A DNA stretch of 64,000 bases. Origin: Asterochloris sp. CNOR1. Taxonomy: Eukaryota > Chlorophyta > Trebouxiophyceae > Trebouxiales > Trebouxiaceae. The stretch spans positions 2,666,001 to 2,730,000 of the forward strand of contig OZ017752.1 in NCBI GenBank assembly GCA_963969365.1. The letters run 5' to 3'. A program made the position numbers and the translations under genes. The stretch's first letter is position 1. The number at the start of each line of letters is the position of its first letter. Below the pieces are notes generated by a model. That model did no database searches and had not been told where the DNA came from. It saw only the letters and a program-made list of their open reading frames with translations. Below are positions 1 through 27,879 of this stretch, in pieces.

Positions 1-10259
<10,259 letters not shown>

Positions 10260-10311: not shown

Positions 10312-10394
10312 GATCAGAAGTGCGACCGATCAAAAGTGCATTTGGCGTCTCGCCAGGCTCCCTCCAAGTCGTGCTTGCCTCCAAGTCGTGCCTG
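10312..10394. repeat. Two pairs of short direct repeats (iteron-like)
   Basis: GATCAGAAGTGC (10312-10323) is repeated as GATCAAAAGTGC (10328-10339) with a 16-bp period. CCTCCAAGTCGTGCTTG (10361-10377) is followed immediately by a near-identical 17-mer (10378-10394). They lie between the divergent starts of the IleRS gene (10259) and the HUH-like gene (10604). They could be initiator-protein binding repeats or simply promoter repeats. Confidence 0.6.
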
Positions 10395-10603
10395 CAGCGA
10401 ACGGTCCACGCTGACCTAAAGTAAGTCAGGTAACACCCTGCGACACGGCGTCAGACTTGAAGGCCTGCTCCGCGACAGACCCTGGTCATGGTGGTCATGC
10501 CCACTGGAATGCATCTTGACAGTCTTTTAGCTCACATCAATGAGCTTGGGCCTGTGTGCCTACTTAGAGCATTTCAATCCCACTCATAGGAGAGCAGGCC
10601 ACA

Positions 10604-11683
10604 ATGAACTCCAAGCAAGGCAGCGGCAAGAAGCCATTGCAGGAGCGCAACTTTGAAGTTGTTGTCAATCACATCACCACCAACGAAGACCAGCTGCCTC
10701 AGGTCTCGCAGCAGAGCATGGCAGCCTTGAAGAATGTCTTTGGAAACAACATAAAGAAGTATTCAGGTACCTTTCACCACAAAGCTGGCAATGACCACGT
10801 ACACTTCCTTGTGATGTCTGAGGCTCCCAAGACCAAGAGCGCTGTCAAAGCCCGCATTGCTGCCTCCATGGCACCCATTTTTGGCACAGAGACTGGCTTT
10901 GTGGAGGTGAAGTTGTTCAACGAGTTGAAAGCAGATGCTGGACCAGCTCGCGGCCTGAAGGGGCTTGGCGACTACAGGTCACTGTACGTGAACAACAACG
11001 ACCATGCAAATCACCGCCCAGAGGATCCTGGGCACAGGACAGTGGAGTTCATGTGCGGTGGAGATTGGGAGATCTCGCATGGAGGTCTCAGGAAGAGCGC
11101 TGGACGACAAGGCCCAGTGCAAGTGGTCACAGCAGCTGTCAAGGCAGGGACTCCAGAACTTCAATGCAAGACGTATGAGGAATATGAGCGTCTGATGGAA
11201 GCTGCCGCAGACAGTGTGAAATGCACCAAGTCCGACTTGCCGAGGGTGTTCATCAAGAGCTCGAGCTCCAACACTGTGTCAAGGCGTGTGCAAGGCGACC
11301 TGATTCGCAATCCTGCCTATGATGAGGAGGAGTTCAGAGCCCTCCCAAAGGAGCAGCAGACTCGCCAGCGAGAGCGCTCCATGAAGTACCTGCAAGGGCC
11401 CAATGGAAGCCTGCGAGAGGAACGTATGGTCGCTCATGAGTTTTTGGAGGCACACCCTCCTGACTTTCGTCGCCTCAGACTCCTGGAGCCTATCAGGAAG
11501 TTGCAATCTGGACCTGGCGGCCTTTCGCTGACCAAGCTGAAGCAGTACTATGAGGAGGCATTTATCAATCTGTTTGAGGACCTCCCACCTCCTGGATGGA
11601 TGGCTGGGCGTGCGCCAGCAAGGACTTGTGTCACTTACAATCTGCCGGCAGCTGTTGTTGCTGATGTGATGAAGGCCAGATGA
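10604..11683 (+). CDS. Intronless 359-aa protein with HUH-endonuclease-like motifs (Rep-like, tentative)
   Basis: A single uninterrupted reading frame starting at ATG 10604, striking among neighbours cut into short exons. The N-terminal third resembles a rolling-circle initiator. There is a hydrophobic strand FEVVVNH (residues 17-23, motif I-like), then HVHF (65-68) as a His-hydrophobic-His metal site on a beta strand, then paired tyrosines in DYRSLYV (123-129) where a nicking tyrosine would be expected. The usual Lys of the YxxK motif is not evident, so the assignment is tentative. The C-terminal two thirds is charged and helical with no recognised motif. It converges with the SF3 helicase gene at 12437 and faces a palindrome cluster at 12072-12171. 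If it is an initiator, it would nick an origin and the helicase would unwind. Other possibilities are an uncharacterised accessory protein of a mobile element or a host orphan. The frame looks whole. Confidence 0.55.
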   Translation: MNSKQGSGKKPLQERNFEVVVNHITTNEDQLPQVSQQSMAALKNVFGNNIKKYSGTFHHKAGNDHVHFLVMSEAPKTKSAVKARIAASMAPIFGTETGFVEVKLFNELKADAGPARGLKGLGDYRSLYVNNNDHANHRPEDPGHRTVEFMCGGDWEISHGGLRKSAGRQGPVQVVTAAVKAGTPELQCKTYEEYERLMEAAADSVKCTKSDLPRVFIKSSSSNTVSRRVQGDLIRNPAYDEEEFRALPKEQQTRQRERSMKYLQGPNGSLREERMVAHEFLEAHPPDFRRLRLLEPIRKLQSGPGGLSLTKLKQYYEEAFINLFEDLPPPGWMAGRAPARTCVTYNLPAAVVADVMKAR

Positions 11684-12071
11684 CACAAGCTTGTCTCAGA
11701 GATGAAAATTGGGAATACATGTACTGACATGCTACAGCACAGGTGTGGAAAGAGCGTCCATGCACCCACATCGTGTGATTTTGTAACAGGTGCAGAAAGT
11801 GCGCCAGTGCAAGCCTTTTCATGGGCCCAGGAGGCCCTCTTTTGCCACCAGGGAATCAAGTGTAGCCCATGCCCAGCCCTTAAAGCTACCACATGTCTTG
11901 ATGTGGACAGCTCCCTCAGGTTGTCATCATCAAGTGAAGTTCAATTGTAATGGAACATTGTTGTGCAATGACTGGCCACAAATGTTTAATTGGCCCAGAG
12001 AGACAGGGTTACGCAGGAATGCAGATCTTCAATTCATGTAGACCAAGAGTGTTTCAAGTGTAGTCTGTTGG

Positions 12072-12171
12072 GGGCAAGCCTGCAGGCTTGCCCTCTCAAG
12101 GTGAGATGTGGTTTTGTGGGGTGACATCTCACTTTCTGAGTGTCATTTGACACCACTCAGTGAAATGTGAG
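12072..12171. repeat. Cluster of three adjacent palindromes
   Basis: First is a perfect 22-bp palindrome at 12072-12093 (half-site GGGCAAGCCTG). Second is an inverted repeat with perfect 9-bp arms, GTGAGATGT at 12101-12109 and ACATCTCAC at 12124-12132. Third is a nested hairpin at 12136-12160: outer arms CTGAGTG and CACTCAG, inner GTGTCA-TT-TGACAC, with an imperfect extension of the arms to about 12128 and 12171. They lie about 390 bp past the stop of the HUH-like gene and about 270 bp before the end of the helicase gene. Such clustering suits a replication origin, a transposon terminus, or a bidirectional transcript end. Confidence 0.75.
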
Positions 12172-12436
12172 TTTCAGCAGTCCAATGTGACTTGCAGAGC
12201 AAGAACACGGCACAAAGGTAGAGTACAACAAGGGAGACAAGCCAGATCAAAAGTTTAATACAGATGACATGAAAAGCAGGCAGAGAAGATCAGCAGAAGA
12301 AGGGGCAGTGTTGGGCTGTAGCCACACAAGGCTTCAGACAGTTTTTGGTTCCTCTGCTGCATTAATGCAGAGAGGCAAAGGTCTCACATGTGGCACGTGC
12401 TCATGTGGCGTGGCGTGGCTTGAAAGGTGCCAGCAT

Positions 12437-15400
12437 TCAAGCACAGGACTTGGCAGGGCTGCGAGGGCTGCGCCAGCCCTGATCTGCTCGCTGCTCATGC
12501 TCGACCAGTGACCAGTGCTGAAAGACTTGCCTTGCGGAGACTCCGTTTATTTTGGCATGCTGTTTGGGCCTCCCACACTTCTCCTCTAGCATGCTGCAGA
12601 AATCAGATTTGCTGATGCTGTTGACCCGCAGCTGCCAGCCCTCTCTGTCCTCGTGAGGCAGCTGAAGCTGATACTGATCCCACAGGCGATTGCCAGAGAA
12701 CCTGCCGTTCCGCTGGGGCTCTATCATGTTATCTACCCACTTCATCGCCATGTCCCTCTCCCTGAGCAGCTCGCTCTTGAGCTGAAGCGCGCCTGGTGGC
12801 AGGTTGCCAAGCCCGCCAGCCCTGTATGACTGCAGACCCTGCAACAGGAGGTTGAATGTTTTCTCGTGGCAACCATGCCCCTGTTGGAGTCAGTTGCAGA
12901 AACAAAAGAGCAGAGACACACCTTGAGCATGCGAGCCAGCATGTGCACTTTCCAGACTTCAAAGCGCTCCATGCCAAAGCCAGGCTTCTCAATGAACGTG
13001 TGCTCCTCATGGGTGTACTTGTCCATCTCTTGCCGCTTGACAAAGCGTGCACGAAAAGGAAAGAACAGAAGGCGATCCTGGAAAGCCTACATTCAGACAT
13101 GATGCCTCAAGCCCTGGGATCTCGTGATGTCCAGTAAAGTGATGACAGTGACACAAAAACAAGTGTTACAGCAACAACCAGGCGTTAGAAGCATGGCATA
13201 CATATTCCTCAGGTGGGACAGGCATGCACATGCATGATGTCTTCAGCCCTGGCCACTGTTTGCATGGGCCACTGCTACTGACAGCCACCAGAGCCCACCT
13301 GGTTGTTCTTGCTGGCACTGAATGCAGGCAGCTTGTTCCAGTTGCAGGCAAGGATTGGGGTGCCGTGCCAGCGGAAGCTATCCTTGGTCCTTCCTCCACA
13401 AGCTCTCACCCTGCATGGACCACCTGAATGCCTCAACATGCATGCCAGCATCCCACAGCAGCATAGAAGCAAAGCACTCACGTCAGCTTGAAGCCTCCAC
13501 CACACATGTCCAGCAGCAGAGGGATGTCAAAAGGCTTGTCGGGGCTTGGCTCCTCCACCAGCACCAGCCGTATCCTGTCAAACGGCAGCCAGCCCTCTGA
13601 GTGCTGTGGGACAGCAAGACCTTGCTCAGTGCCAATGTCAGAAGCGTGGACGCAGGGAGCAACGAGTGCACTCTGGAAGCCCACCTCATGTCTCTGTCAA
13701 ACTTTGCCTGATAGAAAAGCTTAGGCTTGGCATCGTGAGCGTACTGCCTGTCCCCCATGGCCATGCACAGCAATCTCAGTAGAGTGGACTTGCCATTAAA
13801 CCCTACAGCAGCACAGCAACATCATGAAGGCAGATGCAGGGGAGCAGTGCAGGAAAGATCTTGACTGCCTTGCACAACATAGAAGCGTGAGCATCAGCTT
13901 ACCTGCGCGCTTGTCGGTGAAGATAGCCAGGTATTTCTCCTGGTGACTGCCAAGCATGGCATAGCCCAGGTACCGCAGCAGCAGATCTCGCTCCTCTGGC
14001 ACAGGAAAGATCTGGGCCAGGAAGTCACCGAACTCTCGCTCAGCGTCTGGGTCGAGATTGAGGGGCTGCCCAGGGTTTGCTGGATCAAAGCTGGGCCACT
14101 CATAGCCCACTGACCTGCTCACATAGTCCGCAGGCAAGCCCTGCCGCGGCAGGCCGGTGACCTGCATAAGGTGAGCTCAGAATCAATGCAGCCCATGCTG
14201 TCTCACTTCTGCATGGCAAGAGCACTCACCAGATCCACCACGCAGTTCTCCATGCCCAGGAGGTCAGGGTTGCCGTCCATGTGATGATCAACCTGAGCAT
14301 CTGCCAGCTGCAAGACTGCAGTCCTCTTGAGACTGCTGATGAAGTTGGCCTTGCGCAGATTCCTCAGGGCCAGAGTGAGATTGTCATCATAGAACTGCAG
14401 AGCTGGACACAGATATGTCACACAGCATCCAGTGGGCACCACAGATATGCCACGACAGCAGGCCATGCAGAGCAACAAAGAGACTACGTGCAGGCAGGCA
14501 CTCTTTGAGAACAAGACATGGTAAGATCTGTGACCAACCTTGCATGGCTCCAGAAGGTCAATGAGGGTGTTCTGCAGGTCCCTTTGCATCTGCAGCTCCT
14601 CAACGAGTCGCCACCGGCTGCCAGAAAACCTGAACACCTGACCAGAAGTGCCACAGAGGTAGCGCTGTGGGTACACCTGCCTTGGCAAGGGCACCTTGTG
14701 AAGGAGTGGCATATGGAGCAGAGTACAGGTCATGCAACGCCGTTCAGCAGCGGCACGCACCTTGTCAAACAGCTTCCAGAGAGGTAGATCTGTCTCAGGG
14801 TACTCAAGAAGCTCAGACAACAGCAGAGGTCCCACAACAACAAGCTGGGGTTCTGCCTCAGGTGTGTCAACCCTGCATGGAGCGCAGCGGTGCTTGTCCT
14901 GCCTTGCCAGTCCTCACAGTGCAGCCAAGAGGACTCAGTTTGCATACCACAGCGATACTTGCAGCCATGGGTCCTTGCCTGTAGTGCCCTGGCAGCTGCA
15001 GTCTTGTTGCTGAGTGCGATGCGAACTTGAAGACGCCTCCCACAGGCACAAGTGGAGCCTGGAAGGGGATATCTACTCGCTGACTGCAGGGATTAAATCC
15101 TAGCAGAGGCAGGCCCTTTTTGTTTGCATGCTCCCAGCTGTCACGCACAGCCAGTTTGAAGCTCAACGGCCGCCCAGCACGGCGCAGGCTAGCTGCGACA
15201 ACTTCTGCACTGAATTCAGGGGTGCCCGCGTAGCACTCTGAGGAGCCACGCACGCACGGGCCGCCGACCTCGCTCCACCCTGTCACCTGCAGATAGGTGG
15301 AACATTGACTGAGACTACAGCACTGTCACCACCGGCCACTGAGTTCCAAGCTCACCTTCCAGGTCGGCTCATGACTGCGCCTGGCAGTGACGCTGTCACT

Positions 15401-15729
15401 GGGCTCTTGTGCGTTGCCCTCACAACACATCTGACTGAGCTCCTCAGCACTCCCCTCAAGCTGCTGGCTCAGGCTGGAGCATGTCGCACCACAGATCGGG
15501 CACTGGCTGACAGATGCTGTGAAAGTCAGCCTGATGTCCCTGAGGCTCGCTTCTCAGCGCTATCTGGGACAAATATGCGGCGGCGCATGGAGTCAGCTAT
15601 GAACGAAATGTTCAGACTGCATCCTGCATCGCTCAGGAAGCCGCAGCCCTCAAGCAACTCTGTCAGCTCATCGACTTCGAGACCTTTGAGGCGATAAGGC
15701 AGGTACTCGAGCTCGTCTGGCAGGTCCAT
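12437..15729 (-). CDS. D5-like superfamily 3 helicase (virus/transposon type), spliced
   Basis: A replicative helicase of the poxvirus D5 / D5_N type found in large DNA viruses, virophages and related mobile elements. Read leftward, the parts are an N-terminal region from ATG 15729, a D5_N-like segment (LLGMENCVVDL near 14240; GLPADYVSRSVGYEWPSFDP near 14110), Walker A GFNGKSTLL (near 13790) reached across an intron, a Walker B-like RIRLVLVEEP (near 13570), a sensor-like segment GTPILACNWNKLP (near 13345), and a helical C-terminus ending at 12437. About ten exons with good GT-AG signals keep an open frame, so the gene looks whole. No archaeo-eukaryotic primase domain was recognised in the N-terminal exons. 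Host-style introns imply long residence or domestication. It is convergent with the HUH-like gene. Family is well supported; exon limits are approximate. Confidence 0.78.
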
Positions 15730-15781
15730 AGAGCTGCAGAGACTCGACCGACCTCTTCGACTTGACTTATATGGCCTGGTG

Positions 15782-15981
15782 ACAGCCTGACCAGTGGGTC
15801 AAAAGGGAGGGAGACATGGGAGCTCTTTGTGGGGCATGAAAGCACCGACACAAAGGACACACAGGACACAACGAAATCACCCCAGCATACTCAGCAAGCT
15901 CATGAGTTTTGCTCCAGGCCCCCGAGCAGACTGCATCCTTGCCAGCAGCTGCAGCCCTGGCAGGCTGTGTCCTTTGTGTCT
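15782..15981. repeat. Inverted-repeat element, copy A (MITE-like)
   Basis: Perfect 15-bp inverted arms, GACACAAAGGACACA at 15847-15861 and its complement at 15966-15980, enclose a 104-bp core. The same core and about 65 bp of its left flank recur at 17688-17898 in the same orientation. No target-site duplication is obvious. The element lies just upstream of the helicase start at 15729, so it could also be shared promoter sequence. Confidence 0.65.
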
Positions 15982-16490
15982 GGGAATCTGTCAATCACAG
16001 ATCTGCCCGCTGGCAGCATTATCCTCAATGGCAACAGTCTCAACAGCCCTGCTAGGCTGTGAGCCCCACCATGCTCATGCAGTTCAGGCTGGCGTTCTGC
16101 TGCCGGGCTAGATGGCAGAGCTCCCACACCTAAGCACATGGGACCTTGGTGTGCGCCACAAAGTGTCCTCGTTGCTCACTGGGTGCTGGCAGGCAGGGCA
16201 GCGGTATGGCACCTACTCCTCATGGCAGAAAGTGGCACACTGGCACATGCCTATCCTCTAGGTGGCGAAATGCCTAAATGTTCACTTGTATATCACTTGA
16301 ATCATGGAGCCACTTCAGTCTTCATGAGACATACTGCAATCACTCAAAAGGAAGAGGAGCAGACCGCCTGATGACCACAGTGAGGCTGCTAATTGTGCCA
16401 CGCGAATGTGTGGGAGTGAGGCCGCCGAACCACGCACAGCATGGACCCAGGTCGCAAAGCCTTGTTTCAGGGGAAATGCCGCTCTCTTTT

Positions 16491-16560
16491 TGAGAGAATG
16501 GATTTAAAGTCCGGGGGCCACAATGAACGGGCATGGGACTGACAATTCATGTAATCATGG
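16491..16560 (-). mobile_element. LINE 3' terminal segment, copy 1
   Basis: On the minus strand this segment reads AGTCCCATGCCCGTTCATTG followed by a CGGACTTTAAAT block. The same blocks occur at 21515-21560, next to another fragment with a related zinc-knuckle reading frame. It directly follows the stop of the reading frame at 16555, as expected for a LINE 3' end. Confidence 0.65.
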
Positions 16561-17331
16561 CAAAAGCAGCACTGATTGATGCATAAGCAGCGCTGCACGC
16601 ACATACTTAGCAAGCAAAATTGGGGGATGGTCATCAAAGAGGTCTGTCAAAGTCTGTCCTGGCGTCTTGAATAGGTGGCTGTGGGCGTTGCGCAGGTCAT
16701 CGAGCTGGGGACAGTGCAGCAAGATGTGTTGCTCGTCTTCTATGGCGGTTGCTGATGTGCAGAGGCGGCAGGTCCTCTCGTGTCTGGCTTCTAATGTGTA
16801 GCGGCCTGTCTCAACTCTCAGCCTGTGGCTGCTGCAGCGGATATGGGCCATTGATTTGCGCAGTCTGTAGCCTCTGATCTGCTGGATGTAAGGTTGCGTG
16901 GTGTACGCTGCGCTGAAGCCTGGAATTGTTGGCAACTTGGCATTGTAAATCTCGAAAATGCCTTCCATCAGCTCCTTGACTGTTAAAGGCATGCCTGAAG
17001 CGCCAATGGACTTCGTGAACCGGCCGTGGCCATATGGGGCTAGATCCCAAGTGATGGTCAGCGGGTGTTCAGCCACGAGCACATTGAAGTGTGCCTCGTC
17101 CAATGGGTCCATTGTGACGCGATCCCTCACTCTGAAGGTGTCATCGTTCATGCAAAAATTGAAGCCACTGCCGTCATTGAATGTGCACATGTCCCTGCCC
17201 AGAGTCAGCTTGCATGATGTCTGTTGAAGGTGTCTCACTGACCTTTGAAGGCTGTCAACCTGCTTCTCCAGGTCCAGCATGCGGTCCATGCACATGGTGA
17301 CAAAAGCTGCATTGGGAGTCTCAGGCACCAT
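16555..17331 (-). CDS. LINE-derived zinc-knuckle C-terminus fused to an unrelated N-terminus
   Basis: Reading frame of about 258 codons from ATG 17331 (an upstream in-frame TTG at 17349 is not needed). The N-terminus carries a short coiled coil (MCMDRMLDLEKQVDSLQRSV). The middle, around HPLTITWDLAPYG and LTVKELMEGIFEIYNA, faintly recalls the fungal DUF6699 family; this is a guess. The C-terminal 120 residues match the tail of non-LTR retrotransposon polymerases. They contain IRGYRLRKSMAHIRCSSHRL, a CxxC-x10-H-x4-C zinc knuckle (CRLC ... H ... C) and the acidic EDEQHILLHCP segment. The second copy at 22058-22492 shares only this C-terminal part. It therefore looks like a 5'-truncated LINE insertion that became joined in frame to another coding sequence, or a LINE with an unusual ORF. 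Whether it is expressed is unknown. Confidence 0.55.
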   Translation of the reverse strand: MVPETPNAAFVTMCMDRMLDLEKQVDSLQRSVRHLQQTSCKLTLGRDMCTFNDGSGFNFCMNDDTFRVRDRVTMDPLDEAHFNVLVAEHPLTITWDLAPYGHGRFTKSIGASGMPLTVKELMEGIFEIYNAKLPTIPGFSAAYTTQPYIQQIRGYRLRKSMAHIRCSSHRLRVETGRYTLEARHERTCRLCTSATAIEDEQHILLHCPQLDDLRNAHSHLFKTPGQTLTDLFDDHPPILLAKYVRAALLMHQSVLLLP

Positions 17332-17687
17332 GACGTTTTGCCAAGACAAGCAAAACCCTTGTCTCTAAGCCGTTCACTTCAACACAGAGAACTGTGCTTG
17401 GGGGCTCGCTGAGGGTTCTGCTGCAGAACAACGTGCGACAATGTGAGCCAAGGCCAGCAGAAGGACATAGATTTGCATCACACTGCTGCTGCGCACCTTC
17501 CAGTCCCTTGGCAATAAATACAACACGCTGGCCTGCTGGAGACCTTGCTACCCCAGGATGCAGAATGATGTGCGACATTGGGAGCCACGGCCTGCAGAAG
17601 GTAAGCAGATTGTTGTTTGTCATTTGCTGGCTTGGGAGGACTGACATCTTTGAGCTTCCTTATATGTGTTGACCAGGCCCTGTGACA

Positions 17688-17898
17688 GCACCTGAGCCCC
17701 AGCCAGTGGCTCAAGTGGAAGGGGAGCCATGAAAGAGCTCTAAATGAGGCATCAAAGCACTGACACGACGGACACACAGGACACAAGGAAATCACCCCAG
17801 CATACTCAGCTGCTCATGAGTCTGCTCCAGGCACCTGGGCAGACTGCATGCTGGCCAACAGCTGCAGCCCTGGAAGGCTGTGTCCTCTGTGTCTGTGT
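17688..17898. repeat. Inverted-repeat element, copy B (MITE-like)
   Basis: Second copy of the element at 15782-15981, by eye about four-fifths or more identical, same orientation, about 1.9 kb away. Imperfect inverted arms run 17762-17785 and 17879-17893. Both copies share the block ATCACCCCAGCATACTCAGC. The pair brackets the LINE-derived reading frame at 16555-17331. Confidence 0.65.
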
Positions 17899-18487
17899 GT
17901 CTCAATGAGGCATGGAGATGGATTGGGAGGTGGCACATGGATGGCCTCATGCCAATCTGAGAGGGGGAGGACTGGCCAAAGCCACCTGGCGTTCCCCATT
18001 GCACCAGGGCATCACTGCTGCAGCATGTGATGACGAAAAGTGGTATGTTGCCTTCCTGACCTTTGAGCATCTTGCTGGTCCTCCCAGTGACAGTGTTGTG
18101 TTGTAGCTGGGAAGGTACCTGCTTTTGACTGAGCCTTCTAAAAGCCCCACAGGCCCTGATCAGGGCATTGGCCTTAAGGCTGCCACTCAAAATCACTTCA
18201 AGCTGATATTTCAGCCTAGACATTGTTATTTTTCGCTGAGTGCCACTCGGTCCACTCTCCAAGATGCTTGCCAGGGGTGATGTGACGCTAGGTGTGTAGA
18301 CCAAGAGAGCAGGCCTCAAGGGGCTTGCCCTGGCGGGAGGTATGCGTGTCTGTAGAATGAATCCGCACTTTCTGAATGATGATCAGAACCTCTCAGAACA
18401 TGACTTTCAGCAGAAAAGAGTGACCTGTTCATGTAAATGGCGGTAGGCGTTGTCAATCGAAGAGTCAGCTTACAATTAAAGACTTGC

Positions 18488-21468
18488 TCAGCCGCTCTGC
18501 TTACGCTTGCCAAGCAATTTGTAATCACTGTTGTACCTGCTGCATAGCTGCTGCAGTGAGCTGACTGTCCTGGTGGCAGGGATGCGTTCACATTCCAGTT
18601 CTAAAGCCCCAACCACGGCTGCCATGGTGCTTCCCAAGGCAGCCATCCGGTTTCTGACCTCAGCAGCAAGGCCGTTCTTGAATCTTGAGAAGGCCTTGCT
18701 GCTGGCCCTTGCTTCTTTCTTGCTGCCATGCCACCTGCGGAGGTCTGAAGGCACCGCTGAGATCTTGGCAAACGCCTCGAATGCTGCCGGGACTGTTTGA
18801 AAATCTGAGAGCCGCCAGACCTGCACTTCACAAGGGGAAGGGTCTGACCATTACGCAGTTGCTCAAGCTGAAAGGCAACTGACTGCACACCTGCTTCTGC
18901 CAGAAAGGAGTCCCTCTCATCCGGGGCGTTCAGCACACTGAGGGACTGAGGCGGCAGAGCAATGCCATAGCTGGTCTGTGAAGCCAGTGGCACACGTGGG
19001 ATGGGTTTGGCTGCTGCCGGGGGCTGAAGGCCAGATAGAGGCACCTGAGGCAGCATCACCACTGGGGCAAAAGGCATTGGCGTGGCCTCCTTCCACCCAG
19101 CGTCTTGAAGAAGAAAGCCTGCGACATGGAAGGGCAAAGGTTCAGAGCATGCATGTTCAACTACAACACCTAGGGGGCTGCAGCGCTCACCGTTGGGTTG
19201 GTGAACAACAAATTCCTGTCGTTGAGAACTGCCTCAGCAGCAATGTGTTTGTCCCACGTCTCCTGCCGCAGCTGCTTGCCTGCAGTGCTCTGCAGAAGGC
19301 GACTGGCGGCTGGCGGGATGGTGCGGAGCCACTGGTCCCCATATGAGTCAATCCTCAAGCTGGCATTCTGCACAAACACTTGCCGCAGGTGGGCGATAGC
19401 CCTCAAGGGCGCCAGCAAAGGATGTGCAGGGTGGGATCGCATGCCAGCTTGGCGCAGGAGCACTGTCAAGCCTGGGATGATGCGGTCCAGCACATCCTCC
19501 TCAGCCTGCAGAACACAAGTGAAAAAGTCCCCCCCTTCCCCAATCTTGGTGATCTGCGTGAGAAGCATTGGCACTGCAATGACCTTACCTCAAAATCAGC
19601 CTGGCCCAAACGATGATTCTCGTGCCAGTCCCGTCCCCAACCAGCCAGCCTGTGGGCTGTGTCCGGGTCAAAAATGCAGTACAGGTCTGTGGTGTCAGAC
19701 TCATGCCTGCAAGGCACAGAACTGTTCAGCTGGGGACAACTCTGTTCAGAATGCACAGCATGGCCAGAGTTGCCCACCTTGCCGCCATCTTGATCTCCGC
19801 TTTGTTGATGCCCACGCTCTTAGCTGCCTCCACACCATGCTTCTTGAACTTGTGGCTGACTTCGCCTTTGGCGGAGTAACCATCAAGCCTGCCACAGGGC
19901 ACGCCTGCAGTGTAGCAAGCCACAATTTTCATCGACAGCCGTGTGCAAAAGCTGCAGCATTGACGCACTGGCTCACCAGCAAGTTCAAACGCCTGCTGAA
20001 GGTGAACGTTGAGGGTCTCTCCAGTCATGGGCTGATTCCCCTGCATGCTAGGGGCGGCAACAATGAACTTGGCCAGATCCTCAAGTTTGATGCCCCGGTG
20101 GAAGGTGGCGACAGCCAGGTCGGCCAGCGCTGCCTGAGGACAGATGCGATGGTCTCGGTACCTGTGGCAGAAGAGGCATTGTGATACAATACACACTGCA
20201 GCACACCGCCCAACTGCGTCTGACAGCAAGAATGCGCATACCTCACGACACCAGGAATATCCACTTGCCCAGGCTTCACAGTCTTCCCCTGCATGCTGCC
20301 AAAGAGAATTGCCACAGAGGGCGCTGGGCCCACACTGTCTTGCGTCCGCAGTGCCAGGCAGCTCCAGGGAAGCTTGCGCAGGTCATCAGAGCGGCCTAAT
20401 GTGGCTGACATGAACGTCATTGCCATCCTCAGCAGAAAGGCCCACTGCCACTGCTTCTGCTGGAACGCTGCCTGCAGGGACTGGCGAAGCTGCCCTGCGC
20501 TCAGTGCGGCATCCACCTGCAGATTTAAGCAACAAGCTGGTGTCAGACACGCCACCACTCTGTTTGCACAAGACGCTCTGACCAGGTCGTTACCCACCTG
20601 AGCTGCCACTTGCGCGTTGAGGTTCTCAGCCTGCATCTCCCTGCCACGTGCACGGACCAAGTCCCTGACCGCCTGGATCTCCAGGGGTGCGGGTACATCT
20701 GAGGTGATGCGGCCCTGTGAGTATTGCTCTCTGCGGACCTCCTTGAGGTGGCATAGATAATCACTGCATGCACCAGGCCAAGGGTTGGGAAGGGTGGGAC
20801 ATGAGCACAGCTCAGACACAGCAGTGGAGGGGCCCCACGCTGCTGAATGAGTAGCGAGCACCATTCTGCTGCACTGCCTCATCCACAAGCCACATCGAGA
20901 ACTCAAGAATCTTGGCCTGAGACATGAGGTCGCCATCAGGATATTGGTGCGCCTCCTGCTCACAGTATCTCTGCAGGATCACATGCGTGTGAGTGACATG
21001 GCCTTGGAAGCCTCAAGGGGGCCATAAGAACAGGAATAAAGGCCATGCAGTGCCTACCCTCCAGAGCTTGGCAGCTGATTTTTCAGCCTGGACTGTGTTC
21101 TGTGGCTTAGCCGCACCATGACGGGCATGGATGAGCTGGGTGAGCTGTAGGATACGAGCTTCCTCCTCAGGAGTGTTTGGCATTGCTGCTGCCAAGCCAA
21201 CTGCTGCGTCTGAGACTGGTGCTCCATTCTGCTGGCCCAAAGTCTCTAAGCTGTGCACACCAGGGGCAGAGGTTGGCACTGGCTGGAGATCATCCACCAC
21301 TCCAGACAGGTGTCTGCAGGCTTGATCAATGGCCGCTCTGAGGGAAGGGGGGCTGTTTGGAGAGCAGCTGCCATGTAGTTGTGCTATGTAGTCCCCAGCC
21401 AGCCCCAGACTGATGACATGGTTGATGTAGCTGCTGTACTCAGCAGATGGCACCTGGTAGTGCTGCAT
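18488..21468 (-). CDS. Crypton-type tyrosine recombinase, spliced
   Basis: A DNA-strand-exchange enzyme of the Crypton (YR transposon) class. From ATG 21468 about ten short exons read leftward: a core-binding region (KILEFSMWLVDEAVQQNGAR near 20890), then the catalytic domain. Box I arginine lies in SATLGRSDDLRKL (near 20390), as in the Crypton T-x-R-G-x-D/E-x-R pattern. GKTVKPGQVDIPGVVRY follows near 20260. The HxxR box appears as SHKFKKHG with Lys in place of Arg (near 19840), then KMAARW, then the presumed nucleophile tyrosine in DLYCIFDPDTAHRLAGW (near 19680). The C-terminal exons (to 18488) form a basic helical region that may be the GCR1_C-like DNA-binding part seen in several Crypton proteins. 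The frame is open with good splice signals, so it looks whole. A LINE tail ends about 20 bp upstream of the start codon. Confidence 0.8.
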
Positions 21469-21490
21469 GAAGGGGTGGGTCGATCTGGTT

Positions 21491-22492
21491 TGATGATGAT
21501 GATGATGATGATTTAAATTTAAAGTCCGTAGCCTCAATGCACGGGCATAGGACTATGATCATTTCATCCTACCAATGAACTTTGCTGAAGGTGTAGGGGT
21601 ACAAAAAGAAGCAGTACAGGCATATCAAGCAGGTCACTGTACTTGGCTGGTAAAGAGGGAGCCGGCGCTCATAGCAGGCCTTGGCACTGTGCTGGGCTTC
21701 ATCACCACATTGGACTGCTAGCTGAGGTTGCTGCCCGAAATGCAAACACCCTGGATCCTGTATGGCGCAGGGGGGGGCTCAGCCCCCCTGACTGGCTTGC
21801 CACGCCCTCTCAGCTCGTAGACTTCGCAGTCATGAGAGAGTTATGCTTGGGTATGACTGTGACCAGCAGTCTTCCCCTCGCAGGGCACCAGGCTCCAAGG
21901 CGGCACACCCCAAGCAACAACTCAGCATGGGGACCTTAGGGGAAGACAATCATGTGATGAGTCTAGCGCATTGCTATGAAATTGGGGCTCTAATCAGCAG
22001 CTGGTAAGCTGGGGACACATCACGGCACATAGAGGGGTCACCCAGGGTGTCTGTTCCTCATTTAGGCCCAGATGTGCCCCCAGTGATGCCCAGCATAGTT
22101 GCGTGCTGGAGCAGTGCTGCCCTGATGTATGTGGCCACTCGGCTTGGTGGTTGTTCAAACAGCGTTGCCAACGACTGCTGCTGCTCCGCAAACAGGTGGC
22201 TGTGAGCAGACCGGAGGTCTGCAAGTCCTGGGCAGTGTAGCAGGATATGGCTTTCATCCTCAATCTCATTCGGTGACCCACAGATTCGGCATGTCCGGTC
22301 CTCTCGCTTGAGCTGGGGCAATAGGTATCGCCCAGTCTGTACGCGCAGCTGGTGGCTGCTGCACCTGATGCTGGCATAGGCTCTGCGTAGCCTGAAGCCT
22401 CTGATCCTGGTCAGGTATGTCTGCATGGCATAGGCCGTGTTGGGGTTTGGCGTGCTAGGGTTATTTGACCTAGCAATTAGGTCGGGAGACAT
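21491..22492 (-). mobile_element. LINE (non-LTR retrotransposon) 3' fragment, copy 2
   Basis: The reading frame 22058-22492 (144 aa) carries IRGFRLRRAYASIRCSSHQL and a CxxC-x10-H-x4-C zinc knuckle (CRIC ... H ... C), the C-terminal part of a LINE polymerase; the reverse transcriptase itself is absent. About 500 bp further along the element's strand is the 3' end: GTCCTATGCCCGTGCATTGA, CGGACTTTAAAT, then an (ATC)n tail at 21491-21512. A microsatellite tail is typical of several LINE clades. The 21570-22057 part is non-coding or a later insertion. The fragment is 5'-truncated. Confidence 0.7.
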
Positions 22493-22669
22493 TTCTGAGA
22501 CGAACCCAACTGCTGGAGACTGTAAGGCTCAGCAGCCGATTCCTCCGTCCCTTTTACACTCAGTAAGCCGGTGAGCATCTTGACCACAAGTATCTGCTCT
22601 TTCATGTGGCTTCCTGATGAGATCTGAGCGCACAGCTGCACCTGTCCTCAGGGTAAATTGCTCTGGAAT

Positions 22670-25600
22670 ATGGCGGACGAGACAGGACTGGCCGCAGATG
22701 CTCTTTCTGGGCTGGAGGATGAATCCAGGGACGCCGCACTTGGCGTGCTCTATGGCGCAAGCGCTGATGCTCGTCAACGTCTGCAGAACCTGGTTCTGAG
22801 GTTTCGCAACGCTCCTGCACTGGCTGGAGCAGTCAGGGCCTTTCTGTCTGAGCACCGAGGTGCGTAGCCCGTCCCCTGGGTGCTCATGCTGAGGTGCACT
22901 GGAGCATGCAGGTGGGTGGCTTGCCACATGGCAAGATGCGGTTAGGGAGCACTGCCTACAGGGTTGCTAGCGCTGCTGGAGCCCTGCTGGTGCGTCGCTG
23001 TGCTTGTCTGTACAATCACAGCTGACGGGAATGAGCTGCTCATTGATTGAGCAGCCTGTGGAGGTGAGTTGGTGCACCAGGGCTGCAGGAGTTATCAACA
23101 GCATGCAGCGCACCTAGGGAGGCGCTGTTCAGGGTGACTGCCTTACTAGACTCAGCTTCCCCAGTGACACAGGTGGCTGGAGGTGAAGATCCCAAGCAGG
23201 GCTGCAAGATCTGACCTGCATTGCATGCGGCAGCAGGGTTGCGCCTTGTGGGAGGCACTGTGCAGGGTCCTGCCGCCAGGGCTGGCAGAGGCCCTAGAGC
23301 TTGGGCATGCAGGGCACGTCAGGACCTGATCAGTCCACTCCACCAGGGCTGCACCATCGGGGTGCAGGGTAGGCAGTCTACTCATTCAGCCTTCTTTGCA
23401 GTGATTAAGAAGCGTGAGTGGTGATGCCTTCACGCTAAGTGTGGATGCCTTGGAGCCTCACCGGGCCCAGGAGATGTGAACGTCGTGAGCTCTTTACAGT
23501 GCGCCGTAAGTGCGAAGACTCAAGGTTGCTGAGCTGCTCGTCATGTGCTGTGCGTTCCTGTGATGTGCGGGATACCAGAGTCATGGCCAGGCCTCGGCAT
23601 GATAATGGGATTCCTCAAGTGGGCTGCAGCTCGTGTGCTGGCTCACCTGGTGGGGACCTGCCCAGGCGTCCATCTTTGTCTGGCAGGGCGACATGTTCCC
23701 CAATCGCCAGTTGCATGGTTCAACCTGCATGTCATCTGAAGGGGAGCCTGTGCGTGAGGGGTGTCCTGCATGATGTGCGGCAGCAGGTGGGTGCATTCAA
23801 CTCTTCAAGGACCTGTTGACCAGGTGAGAGTGTCACTTTGCAGGAGACAGCATTTGAGTTCTCCAGCTGTCACCAATCGGTGCAGTCAAGCCTGAGCCTG
23901 CGTGTGGGCAATTGCTCTGCTGGGCTTTTTGGCTGAAGGCAACAGAGCTCGCAAGACTAGCGCTTTGCTGGAGGCCAACATCTGCTTTCAGCGCTGCATG
24001 GCCTGTTTTGCCTCCAAGTGACGAGGAACAGGCTGCAAGAGGGGCTTGTTCAAGCAGCTTCTCTGCTGCAGGAGGCAATGGAGAGCTTCTAGAGCAGCTG
24101 GGCCAGCTAAAGTTTGAAGTAAATGACCTCAAAATAACCATCAACCGTGCAGCAAGCACATCCCAACGAGAGGCAGAAATTGGGAAGGTAAGGGCATGTT
24201 GCCATGAAGCAGCAACTCTCTGCTTAAATTGATTGCACCTTTTTGCACAGCCTGCAATTGACTGCCCATAACTCATGTAGTAGAGATGTAGGACTTGTGT
24301 GTGACTGCAGAACCGCAGAAAGCAGATCAGAAATTCCAGATTCTCTGAGGCTCTCCCAGAAGTCCCTGCAGCCAGCATGCAAGCGGTGGTGAATACACTG
24401 AAGGAGCTTTGGGGCCTGCCTCCTGCTGCACGATCTTCGACACGACATCGAGGTGTGTGTCACATTGACTATTGTGTCTGCAGCACAGCTCTCCCTTTCA
24501 GCAGATGCCAGTTGAGTGCTGCCTTTGTTGTGCAGCTGCAAACTCACCTGCCTGCCTGCACAGTGTGCGCCCTAGCAAGTGCCTTTGCTGACAGCAGCAG
24601 GCATTGCCACCTGCAGCAGCCTCAGCAGAGACAGACGCCCCTCTGCGCCTCATCACCATGCGGCGGAAGGGGAGTGAGGAGCTCAGGGAGGCAGCACACA
24701 TGCAACCTGCAGCAATGGAGCTGCTCGGGGGGATGCAGAAAGCACTCGACAACAGAACAGGGTTGGTGCTGGCAGACACCCATGCCAAGAAGTACCTGCG
24801 CAGCCCCGACAAGAAGATTGACTGCTCTGGCCTGGCTGGCAATGATCGCCTCTGGTCGCAGCTGGTTGTGCCCATTGAGTTCAAGCTTGAGGAGAAAGAT
24901 GCAGACGCCGCGCTTGGGCAGCTGCTGGAGTCTGCCAGCATTGTGCAATGCCAGCAGCCAGAGCGAAAGTTCATCTATGCCGTCAGCATCACCATGGACT
25001 CAGTTGAGGTGTTCTGCGTGCACTTTGGGCCGCTGGCAGCCTTCAGCGGCATCCAGGGCAGCGGCCTGCTGCCACTCAGGCTGCACCCAGACTCTCCTGG
25101 CCTGTGCATGCTGGCGCGCGTCGTGGCTGCCCCGCTGGGTCACCTGGGCTTTGAGCCTGCAATCCTGCCAGAGGGCTGGCTGGGGCCCCACAAGTTCAGG
25201 TGCACTCAGCGCCTTGCAGTTCACTCTGAGTCAGCTGACACCCCCCTCAGGCCAAACAGCTCTGTCTTCAAGGCAGTGCTGCCAGAGTGCGGCGACAGTG
25301 AGGCGGTGCTCAAGCTGGCTGTGAATGACAAGGAGGTGGGCTTCCATGTCCGTGCATTACTGCTGGCATGAATTTGTCTTGGTTGGGGACCAGGTGTTCC
25401 TCGTACTGTCTGTCGAGCAGGCCAAAGCCCTGCAGCTGGTGCCACACGACAGCAGGCTGTCAGGTTACTGTTGGAAGCCAGTACCAATGCAGGGCTGTGC
25501 TGATGAATGTGTTGGCATCATGGACAGGGCCTGGCATTGAGAGTTCATCTGCTCTTTGCTTGCCTCTGTGCAGGCCAGAGTCCTGCAGCTGCTGCCGCCA

Positions 25601-26382
25601 GACGCCCCGCACCTTGTGCATCTCCTGGCAGCTGGGAACTTCCGCCACGGCGACACTCTCTGGGACGCTGTGCTGGTGGCGCCAGTTGTTGCGCTGCTTG
25701 AAGCAAGCTTGTCTGTGCAGCAGATTGCCCGGGTCACCTTTGACATTGCTGCTGCGGTGGACCAGCTGGCCGACCTGATGATTGTGCACCGAGACATCTC
25801 GCCAAACAATATTGGCTACCAGGCTGACGGGCACGGCTGCCTATTTGATTTTGGTGCTGCAAAGGTGGGCTCACTCAGGACGGACTGCTGGCATTGTGTA
25901 ATCAGTCTCTGACCCCTCATGTGCAGACAGGTGAAGCAAGCACATATAACCTGACTGACTTGCAGGTGATGGACAGCTCAGGTTCTCAAAGTCCTGTCCA
26001 GACCCTCACAGGCACGCCCATATACATGGCCATTGATGTATTGATGGGCCAAAGCAGCACTCCCAGCACCGACTTGGAGTCCCTATTCTACACCATCCTG
26101 GCTGTTTGTGTTGGTGGAAGCCACAGCGATCGTGGTGCTGGATTCGCCAATGCCCCGAAGGTGGCAGCAAAACTGCGCCGTGGGGGAATGCTTGCACCTG
26201 AGCTAGAAGAGTTGCAGTACGCCCCACAGGACAAGCATGCCTTTCTGGAGACCTTGCACAATGTGTTTTTCCCCTTTGCAACACCTAAAAAGGGCAAAGC
26301 CCCATCTCGTTTCCACTGCAATGATGTCTCGCCTGAGGATGTGAAGGAAGCTTGCAAGCAATTCATGAGCCCAAGTGTGTAA
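22670..26382 (+). CDS. PD-(D/E)XK nuclease-like plus FunK1-like protein kinase
   Basis: A kinase resembling the fungal FunK1 family and Crinkler-type effector kinases, in which a restriction-endonuclease-fold segment precedes an atypical kinase. ATG 22670 opens a first exon (MADETGLAADALSGLEDES...) ending at a GTGCGT donor near 22866. Middle exons near 24060-24190 (a coiled coil, EQLGQLKFEVNDLKITI) and 24378-24450 are likely. The large exon 24630-25340 holds KIDCSGLAGNDRLWSQLVVPIEFKLEE; the IEFK element and upstream Asp fit a nuclease E-x-K core. An N-lobe lysine lies in EAVLKLA. The C-lobe exons carry IVHRDISPNN (catalytic Asp, near 25785), FDFGAAK (DFG), then GTPIYMAIDVL and TDLESLFYTILAV typical of FunK1, with the stop at 26382. 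The 5' exon chain between 22.87 and 24.4 kb is uncertain. It lies next to the recombinase island and may be cargo. Function unknown. Confidence 0.72.
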
Positions 26383-27879
26383 ATTCTGGCTGATCATCAT
26401 CTGTGCAGCACACATGCTTCTTGAGGCTTGTACTGAGCGCCTGTACGCGAGCTGTCCATGTCAATGTCCACCAGCAACCACTGCTGAGCAGAAAGTCTTC
26501 CTTGGCTCAGGTCACACTGATGTGGAAACTTTGGTCTATTGCCTTGAGCTCTCAAAAGCCTCTGGACGCTTTTACATTCATTTTTGGGAGGTGTTGAATG
26601 CCAACAAGCAAGAAACAACACAACTTCAAGCCGCTGGCGCTCAAAGCTTTTGCAGCATAGGCCACAAGCAACTCTGGACACCTTCAAGTCACATCTGCAT
26701 GTGATTTAGTGACATGTTGCGGGGTGTCATATAGCATGTGATAAATTGACAGGTCGCAGGGTGTCACATGGCCTGTGATAACATGACCTATTGAAGCCTA
26801 AGCCCTGCCCCAGGAGTCCACCCTCCCGGGAGCCTCCCATCCCCGGGCAGCCTGCAACAGGTTCCTGGAGACATTTAGATGGCATCGGCACTTTTCACAG
26901 ATCAAATCAAGGAGACTGCTGCCCATCTAAGGTAGCATCTTGGCCAATGCTGACCTGAGGTCCTCAAAAGGCTATACTCTCAGACATCCTGCTGCTTCTC
27001 TTGAGCTGCCTGAAATGCCACACGCTTGAGTGGCAGCAGTGAGGCGCAGCCTAATGAAGAGTGCCAGTATGCTGCACACATGTGAAATCCAGCAGCAGCC
27101 CCACTGGCTTTCCATCATAATACCACAGCAGGCATGCACTGACGTTGGTGGAGCAGTTGGGCAACATGGCCTGTTTGAAGTTCCAGGGGATCTACAAGCT
27201 CGAGATTCGGATGACTACCACTATTGTGGCACCTGCTCATCATCGTGGATGCTTAGACTTTTCTCTGGGACGCTGCCAATGGCCATACACATAGGGGCCA
27301 TTGCCGCAGAAGTCTGAAGGAATATGCTTGTCAGGGCGCGGAGGAAGCTGAGGTCTGCAGCGTCTCATTCATGAGGCGCAGACACAATTCCAATGCAAAT
27401 CTCCGCCAGATATCTTGCCTGAGGAGACAGGTCTGGCCATGCCTGCCCTCATGCCAATTGCCAGGGAAGCGAACACAACAGCTGGAGGTTGCACCACCAT
27501 GACCCTCTGCACTGGGAGAGATATGGGCCCCTTTCCTCCACTGCGCTGTTCTCATTTTAGGCAGCAGCTTGGGGGGCCTCGCAGAAGACCAAGCATGAAA
27601 CAAGTTTCATGATACTTGCAAAAGCACAAGGCTCAAATCATCTGTTATAGCTGGCACCAGCATCAGGTTGGGGCCTTGATCCTGCAAGCCGCTTCTGCTG
27701 ACTCATTTCCAGTCATGGACACTTGATTGGTTCATACGGTGGTCACCGACTCTTGCAGCATGGGGCTGTCTCAGTCCCTCAGCTTGCACAACAGCATACA
27801 GTGGTGATGACACGTGATGCTGGCACCAGCATGGAGGGCAACATGGATTTCACATACAGACAAGGCAGGCAGGGAGCAC
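26383..27879. other. Intergenic stretch between two convergent genes
   Basis: Separates the FunK1-like gene (plus) from the 3' end of the DYRK/HIPK-like gene (minus). It contains a 37-bp tandem duplication at 26710-26783. The reading frames here (for example 27030-27317) show no recognisable motif or coherent splice signals. I see no gene. Confidence 0.5.
26710..26783. repeat. Tandem duplication of a 37-bp unit
   Basis: Two adjacent copies (26710-26746, 26747-26783), each beginning TGACA and containing GGGTGTCA(T/C)AT and TGTGATAA. The next four bases (TGAC) restart the unit. It lies about 330 bp past the FunK1-like stop codon. Confidence 0.75.

Follow-up and report, generated by a model that had tools for sequence, protein, structure and literature searches.

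A 64,000-nucleotide stretch of the green alga Asterochloris sp. CNOR1 (contig OZ017752.1, positions 2,666,001 to 2,730,000; hereafter the window) holds one copy, at 10412-26790 (16.4 kb), of a multi-copy, cargo-carrying DNA element whose constant core is a gene for a HUH Rep-like endonuclease (Rep) and a convergent gene for a tyrosine-recombinase-like protein (YR) (Table 1). The unit has defined ends and three copies of a heptamer core, one at each end and one at an internal site (B); at two loci joints fall exactly at these cores, and the cargo behind B is exchanged between copies. The original prediction for this DNA, made from its letters, had placed Rep, an SF3 (superfamily 3) helicase and a Crypton-type recombinase side by side as a possible three-gene replicative element at 10312..21468. 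We searched the window's own genome (56.4 Mb, 21 contigs; the window is C7:2666001-2730000, C-numbers denoting contigs of this genome and L-numbers copies fetched from it) and obtained at least 126 matches to Rep, at least 14 to the helicase and at least 154 to YR, the best candidates being scored; the matches listed collapse to 81 Rep, 8 helicase and 83 YR loci, and all co-occurrence counts given here rest on these. A convergent YR lies downstream (opposite strand, within 17 kb) at 71 of the 81 Rep loci, with a gap of 4 kb or less at 59 Rep loci and a median gap of 2143 bp, and when the loci were placed at random, 300 runs averaged 1.1 convergent pairs and never exceeded 6 (five contig sizes were approximated in this control and three small contigs omitted). 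The other arrangements of the two genes numbered 8 (YR upstream, opposite strand), 3 (downstream, same strand) and 2 (upstream, same strand), and Rep accompanies 69 of the 83 YR loci. A right end follows within 25 kb downstream at 27 of the 81 Rep loci, compared with 1, 3 and 4 in the controls. The co-occurrence that the original prediction proposed to look for is thus present within this genome for two of its three genes, Rep and YR, in fixed order and orientation and between common ends, with the helicase an optional addition.

The limits of the element are set by comparison among its copies. Their similarity starts at 10412, the flanks beyond differing from copy to copy, and in a DNA search with 26300-26800 similarity stops sharply at about 26790; the heptamer (T)GACCTA stands at both termini as a direct repeat. 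The copies therefore have the shared boundaries for which the original prediction had suggested looking, each marked by the heptamer, although not where it had drawn them: the element extends 5.3 kb past the predicted end, so that an element ending at the YR gene is ruled out by the right end at 26790, the repeats noted before the first gene (10312-10411) lie outside it, and the cargo module beyond the YR gene, which has an internal site of its own, had been overlooked. The left end is present at 18 of 20 fetched Rep loci (none was found at L007 and L008), the right ends mostly read TGACCTA (exceptions include L057, L064 and L054), and the subterminal arms at 10427-10444 and 26753-26770 are inverted and 89% complementary. 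A census of the genome by pattern, with up to three mismatches allowed, gave 33 left ends, 72 right-end units in 65 clusters and 27 B sites, and reversed patterns used as controls gave 0 for each. For 18 of the 33 left ends a right end lies within 25 kb downstream, at a distance of 7.3-22.1 kb (two pairs, above 20 kb, are perhaps nested), and for 15 there is none. At C6:3164371-3171899 left and right ends stand 7.5 kb apart with no Rep match listed between them, possibly a non-autonomous copy. By eye, seven pairs of flanks showed no convincing duplication outside the heptamer, one pair having 3 bp in common. The window's left flank, outside the element, contains at 8771-9340 an exon of a class I tRNA synthetase (PF00133, E-value 1.9e-18).

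All 12 elements examined have site B immediately upstream of the YR gene, in the form GCTAGG-N6-TGACCTA-N5-(T/C)AGGTC, and its region in the window folds better than shuffled sequences (z -3.5). In the census a YR match adjoins 25 of the 27 B sites, and a right end lies within 20 kb downstream for 15 of them and upstream for 0. Everything between B and the right end is cargo that varies among copies: similarity to the window ends some 15-30 bp past B in L041, L043, L065, L066, L069, L070 and L071, and L042 remains 71.6% related to the window after B. In the window, the cargo open reading frame (ORF) at 25894-26382 matches PF17667 (Pkinase_fungal) above the cut-off (E-value 1.8e-7); matches below the cut-off were found for the cargos of L067 (Pkinase, 9e-6), L044 (Trypsin_2, 1.6e-4) and L069 (HNH_2, 0.0016), and the L042 cargo gave a P-loop match (0.011). 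The L066 cargo has a nuclease-like motif by eye and that of L068 a kinase-like HRDL motif, neither with a Pfam match, and the L065 cargo piece had no Pfam match. As a set these cargos may resemble effectors of the Crinkler/RHS type.

Two comparisons show how the cargo varies. The 3' part of the window's cargo (24805-26790) recurs at C1 and C16 with 97% identity, and the first 500 bp after B differ at these loci; between L043 and L065 identity is 98.3% across the YR start and B, is lost from 20 bp after B, and returns at 95.4% over 1.4 kb of cargo. From these patterns we conclude that the first part of the cargo gene has been exchanged, the left border being sharp and lying at B. The C1 and C16 kinase cargo copies carry one in-frame stop each in their N-part. 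Stretches of about 150-300 bp at 22987-23593 of the window are common to otherwise different cargos (74-88%); they lie between the first coding exon (header) and the C-part, possibly in an intron that serves shuffling. In L063 and L068 a decayed YR 5' end stands near right-end units, perhaps the trace of a form without cargo.

Joints between elements fall at the cores. C1 and C16 have a flank in common, two blocks, each of some 0.5 kb, that match at 95-97%. The kinase element at C1 finishes in a TGACAGG unit core, followed by a 37-bp unit and TGACCTA, and at C16 a second element (left 1525194, right 1534714) replaces the last 37-bp unit and ends exactly at both cores. One heptamer, at C5:3193264-3193270, joins a right-end unit to a left end, and this joint is the product expected of a circle or a tandem.

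The Rep ORF is intact and without introns, as originally read, and its call as an HUH-like nuclease gained some support. An H-hydrophobic-H motif is present in 27 of 28 Rep homologs; the window Rep alone had no Pfam match at E-values up to 1, and part of the homologs matched HUH profiles, namely the MobL relaxase (12 of 28, best E-value 1.8e-4), Rep_OBD (3 of 28, best 0.03) and MobP2. An AlphaFold2 (AF2) model has the strand order b-a-b-b(HVH)-a-b at a mean pLDDT of 68.7. The motif, these weak profile matches and the modest model together point to a probable HUH endonuclease. A sequence search of the PDB with the Rep profile gave three matches, no HUH protein among them, and a PHROGs search gave nothing clear; homologs that the element's proteins do match are named jgi/Astpho2 'Aster'. 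The palindromes predicted between Rep and the helicase are also borne out, as 12050-12180 folds far better than shuffles (z -3.6), and a hairpin arm of this cluster was also matched in L005, L006, L016 and L018.

The recombinase gene, too, stands where it had been predicted and is recurrent, but its Crypton-type family is only weakly backed by profiles. YR motif blocks are present in 9-12 of 15 homologs, and these motifs, with Pfam matches below threshold, weakly support a putative tyrosine recombinase. With the YR profile a PDB sequence search returned 0 matches, and a profile search with the YR alignment returned Asterochloris-named and ENA matches and nothing else; NDC10_II searched against raw genome DNA gave no match here and likewise none in 14 control genomes. 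In the ninth exon (18821-19118) the open frame is offset relative to four other copies, reflecting either a frame problem or another splice site.

The predicted convergent SF3 helicase is real in the window, on the minus strand, with a D5_N match (E-value 2.5e-9) for a hand-spliced model. It occurs at eight loci among the matches listed, which rules it out as a constant part of the element; five of these eight are convergent with a Rep and lie 1.8-2.6 kb 3' of it, and a YR lies beyond the helicase at five. At C3 its Rep is a diverged copy, probably within a nested element; in C3:117441-139616 a second Rep copy (C3:124434) stands between the Rep and helicase pieces, probably as a nested insertion. 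L002, L003 and L004 match the window from 15202 on and not at 12334-15201, so the helicase has probably been lost there. In the short copies L009, L010 and L015 the match goes from 12395 straight to 17703; the direct repeats R1 and R2 flank part of the long form, and these three copies have a single such segment directly after 12395. Of the two retrotransposon-like inserts in the window copy, part of the first (16488-16919) is missing from L041. Similarity skips from about 21490 to 22444 in L041, L042, L043, L065, L066, L069, L070 and L071, and since the insert at 21493-22443 is thus absent from at least eight other copies, it arrived after the element. Both inserts are on the minus strand and resemble each other by eye.

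Table 1. Features of the element copy in the window (window coordinates)
Feature	Position	Strand	Description
Left end A	10412..10502	+	Heptamer TGACCTA (10412-10418), then AAGTAAGTCAGGTAACACCCTGCGAC; conserved to ~10502
HUH Rep-like endonuclease gene	10604..11683	+	Intronless, 359 aa, HVH at residues 65-67
Strong hairpin cluster 3' of Rep	12068..12180	.	Possible origin or terminator
D5-like SF3 helicase gene	~12437..15729	-	Multi-exon, optional module
Segment R1	15786..15981	.	About 86-88% like R2 (17703-17902)
Probable non-LTR (long terminal repeat) retrotransposon remnant inside the element	16488..17350, borders approximate	-	zf-RVT E-value 0.11, below cut-off
Tyrosine-recombinase-like gene	18488..21468	-	Ten likely exons, last two uncertain
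Insert between YR start and site B	21493..22443	-	Retrotransposon-like by eye
Internal site B	22450..22493	+	GCTAGGGTTATT-TGACCTA-GCAATTAGGTCGG, heptamer 22466-22472, inverted-repeat structure
Cargo gene first coding exon (header), probable	22670..22859	+	Placed from the reading frame
Window cargo gene, FunK1-type (Pkinase_fungal) kinase domain	24377..26382	+	PF17667
Right end C	26710..26790	+	Two 37-bp units (TGACATG..., TGACAGG...), terminal heptamer TGACCTA 26784-26790

We favour, as the somewhat more probable account, an integrative rolling-circle element that moves as a circle by YR at the heptamer and is amplified by Rep. YR would recombine the two end heptamers into a circle with one heptamer and would put this circle back in at targets resembling the heptamer, among them the right-end units of other copies; Rep, together with the SF3 helicase in copies that have it, would nick the circle and amplify it by rolling-circle replication, raising copy number; and recombination at the core in B would swap the cargo behind it. 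Insertion by YR is favoured because there are direct repeats without a visible target-site duplication (TSD) and joints at the cores, as proposed for Cryptons in an excerpt of PMC3212892. The original prediction had Rep nicking and YR inserting, which agrees with these joints and with the flanks, where no convincing duplication was seen beyond the heptamer; which enzyme acts on or joins the DNA is the part that we infer. A bolder version, which we put forward tentatively and do not expect to hold in full, is a new eukaryotic transposon superfamily with two unrelated DNA-joining enzymes and three cores, in which Rep would amplify the circle and YR insert it, the internal core would act like an integron att site in swapping toxin- or effector-like cargo, and the right-end units would be footprints of past integrations.

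Several observations weigh against the YR-moved circle. On the side of the enzymes, NDC10_II (Pfam) is matched by 4 of 15 YR homologs with a best E-value of 0.016, below the cut-off; the canonical tetrad is R-H-R-Y (by the excerpt of PMC3212892), and by eye a Lys apparently replaces its second Arg; the predicted YR structure is poor (pLDDT 41.6); and the structure matches of the Rep model are level with the general ferredoxin-like background, none at an E-value of 0.001 or better. YR is absent at 10 of the 81 Rep loci and Rep at 14 of the 83 YR loci, and Rep lies upstream of 25 of 40 right ends and of none of the other 15. As to the sites, the left heptamer varies (GACCTA is intact in 14 of 18, and base 1 is T in 12 of 18), and no empty paralogue was found with seven joined flank pairs, one left flank giving four partial repeats at 73-88%. 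The other side of the C5 joint is an inverted left end, a head-to-head arrangement and no clean tandem; the cargo exchange could have come about through homologous recombination of the ordinary kind; and terminal repeats that are short and direct would equally suit a Replitron moved by Rep.

The first of the alternatives, unlikely in our judgement yet the best of them, concerns B alone, which would be merely a shared bidirectional promoter with a regulatory heptamer, the cargo diversity arising from homologous recombination and exon shuffling. B does stand just upstream of YR, and in the examined copies the cargo ORFs point away from it; related headers (68-76%) follow it in the window and L042, in L044, L066 and L069, and in L067 and L068, and the short stretch that several cargos share between header and C-part may be an intron that recombines. 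The exact terminal heptamer at B in 12 of 12 elements and the break between L043 and L065 just past B, with high identity on either side, speak against it.

We consider it doubtful that the element is instead a large Replitron-like transposon, in which Rep would transpose, TGACCTA would be its direct terminal repeats, and YR would be a passenger, a resolvase or a cargo shuffler at B. Replitrons, compared here by description (an excerpt of PMC10741241), occur in green algae and have an HUH endonuclease, no terminal inverted repeats (TIRs) and direct terminal repeats of 5-11 bp, and the element shares with them the endonuclease, in its Rep, as well as short direct terminal repeats, the lack of a long TIR and a green algal host. 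In its last right-end unit TCACA-TGGCC-TGTGA stands 12 nt before the terminus, where Helitrons have hairpins 10-12 nt from their ends (same excerpt), but the right end folds no better than shuffles (z -0.49). Replitrons are given there as 0.9-4 kb long with TSDs of 2-8 bp, whereas the 18 end pairs here all span at least 7 kb and the seven flank pairs showed no convincing TSD outside the heptamer; moreover, YR is present in most copies (71 of 81 Rep loci), and no labelled Replitron protein was among the Rep matches.

A degenerate polinton-like virus or virophage that has lost its capsid and polymerase genes is very improbable: some members have tyrosine recombinases and some SF3 helicases (in the part of PMC12220804 cited), but the helicase is rare among the copies, pattern searches of a viral-contig collection with Rep and YR (14 and 54 pattern matches) found no relative, and inspection by eye of the cargo ORFs in eight other copies (two incomplete, most without a profile search) brought neither a capsid nor a packaging gene to notice. 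Independent insertions in a permissive region, which the original prediction gave as its alternative, can be set aside almost entirely: the window copy does contain other insertions and elements do nest in one another, but for Rep and YR the idea is ruled out by the recurrence of order, spacing and orientation between common ends at 71 of the 81 Rep loci.

Among known systems, Helitrons have Rep fused to a helicase in one protein, whereas Rep here has 359 residues and no helicase, and a separate SF3 helicase is present in few copies. AICEs (actinomycete integrative and conjugative elements) of the pSAM2 type are bacterial; they integrate through a tyrosine recombinase and also encode a rolling-circle initiator and cargo, as the element appears to do, and they have attB sites in tRNA genes and transfer proteins. 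Here, in contrast, the host is eukaryotic, the sites are scattered and we noticed no transfer gene. We know of no Rep in Starships, which are much larger, and the YR here is internal, beside site B. As in Starships (PMC12134995, in excerpt), a YR-type protein and cargo genes share one mobile unit, and as in integrons (PMC6431247, likewise) a YR gene adjoins a recombination site behind which genes can be exchanged; unlike an integron the element is itself mobile, it shows no cassette array, and the exchange at B is putative. In Cryptons, by the excerpt of PMC3212892, YR is essentially the sole gene, some also having a peptidase, and a circle has been proposed; the YR-like gene here has a weak Ndc10-like signal, but the same unit includes Rep at 71 of the 81 Rep loci and can include a helicase, and it also has cargo that varies, a third site in its interior and right-end units of 37 bp in tandem. 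Each half of the element thus resembles a known transposon type, and the combination may be said to resemble bacterial integrative rolling-circle elements.

Eukaryotic transposons are classed by one key enzyme, and in the open-licence literature that we searched, which did not include the founding Replitron paper, we found no description of a eukaryotic element with both HUH and YR proteins. A. glomerata has a 100-member family of unknown 'DNA-related' proteins (from an excerpt of PMC6652019), which might be Rep or YR. A recurring unit of HUH nuclease and recombinase-like protein would be a eukaryotic counterpart of the bacterial integrative rolling-circle elements, and its variable cargo (kinases, nuclease-like and protease-like proteins) would make it a testable vehicle for the spread of modular gene families in a lichen-associated algal lineage.

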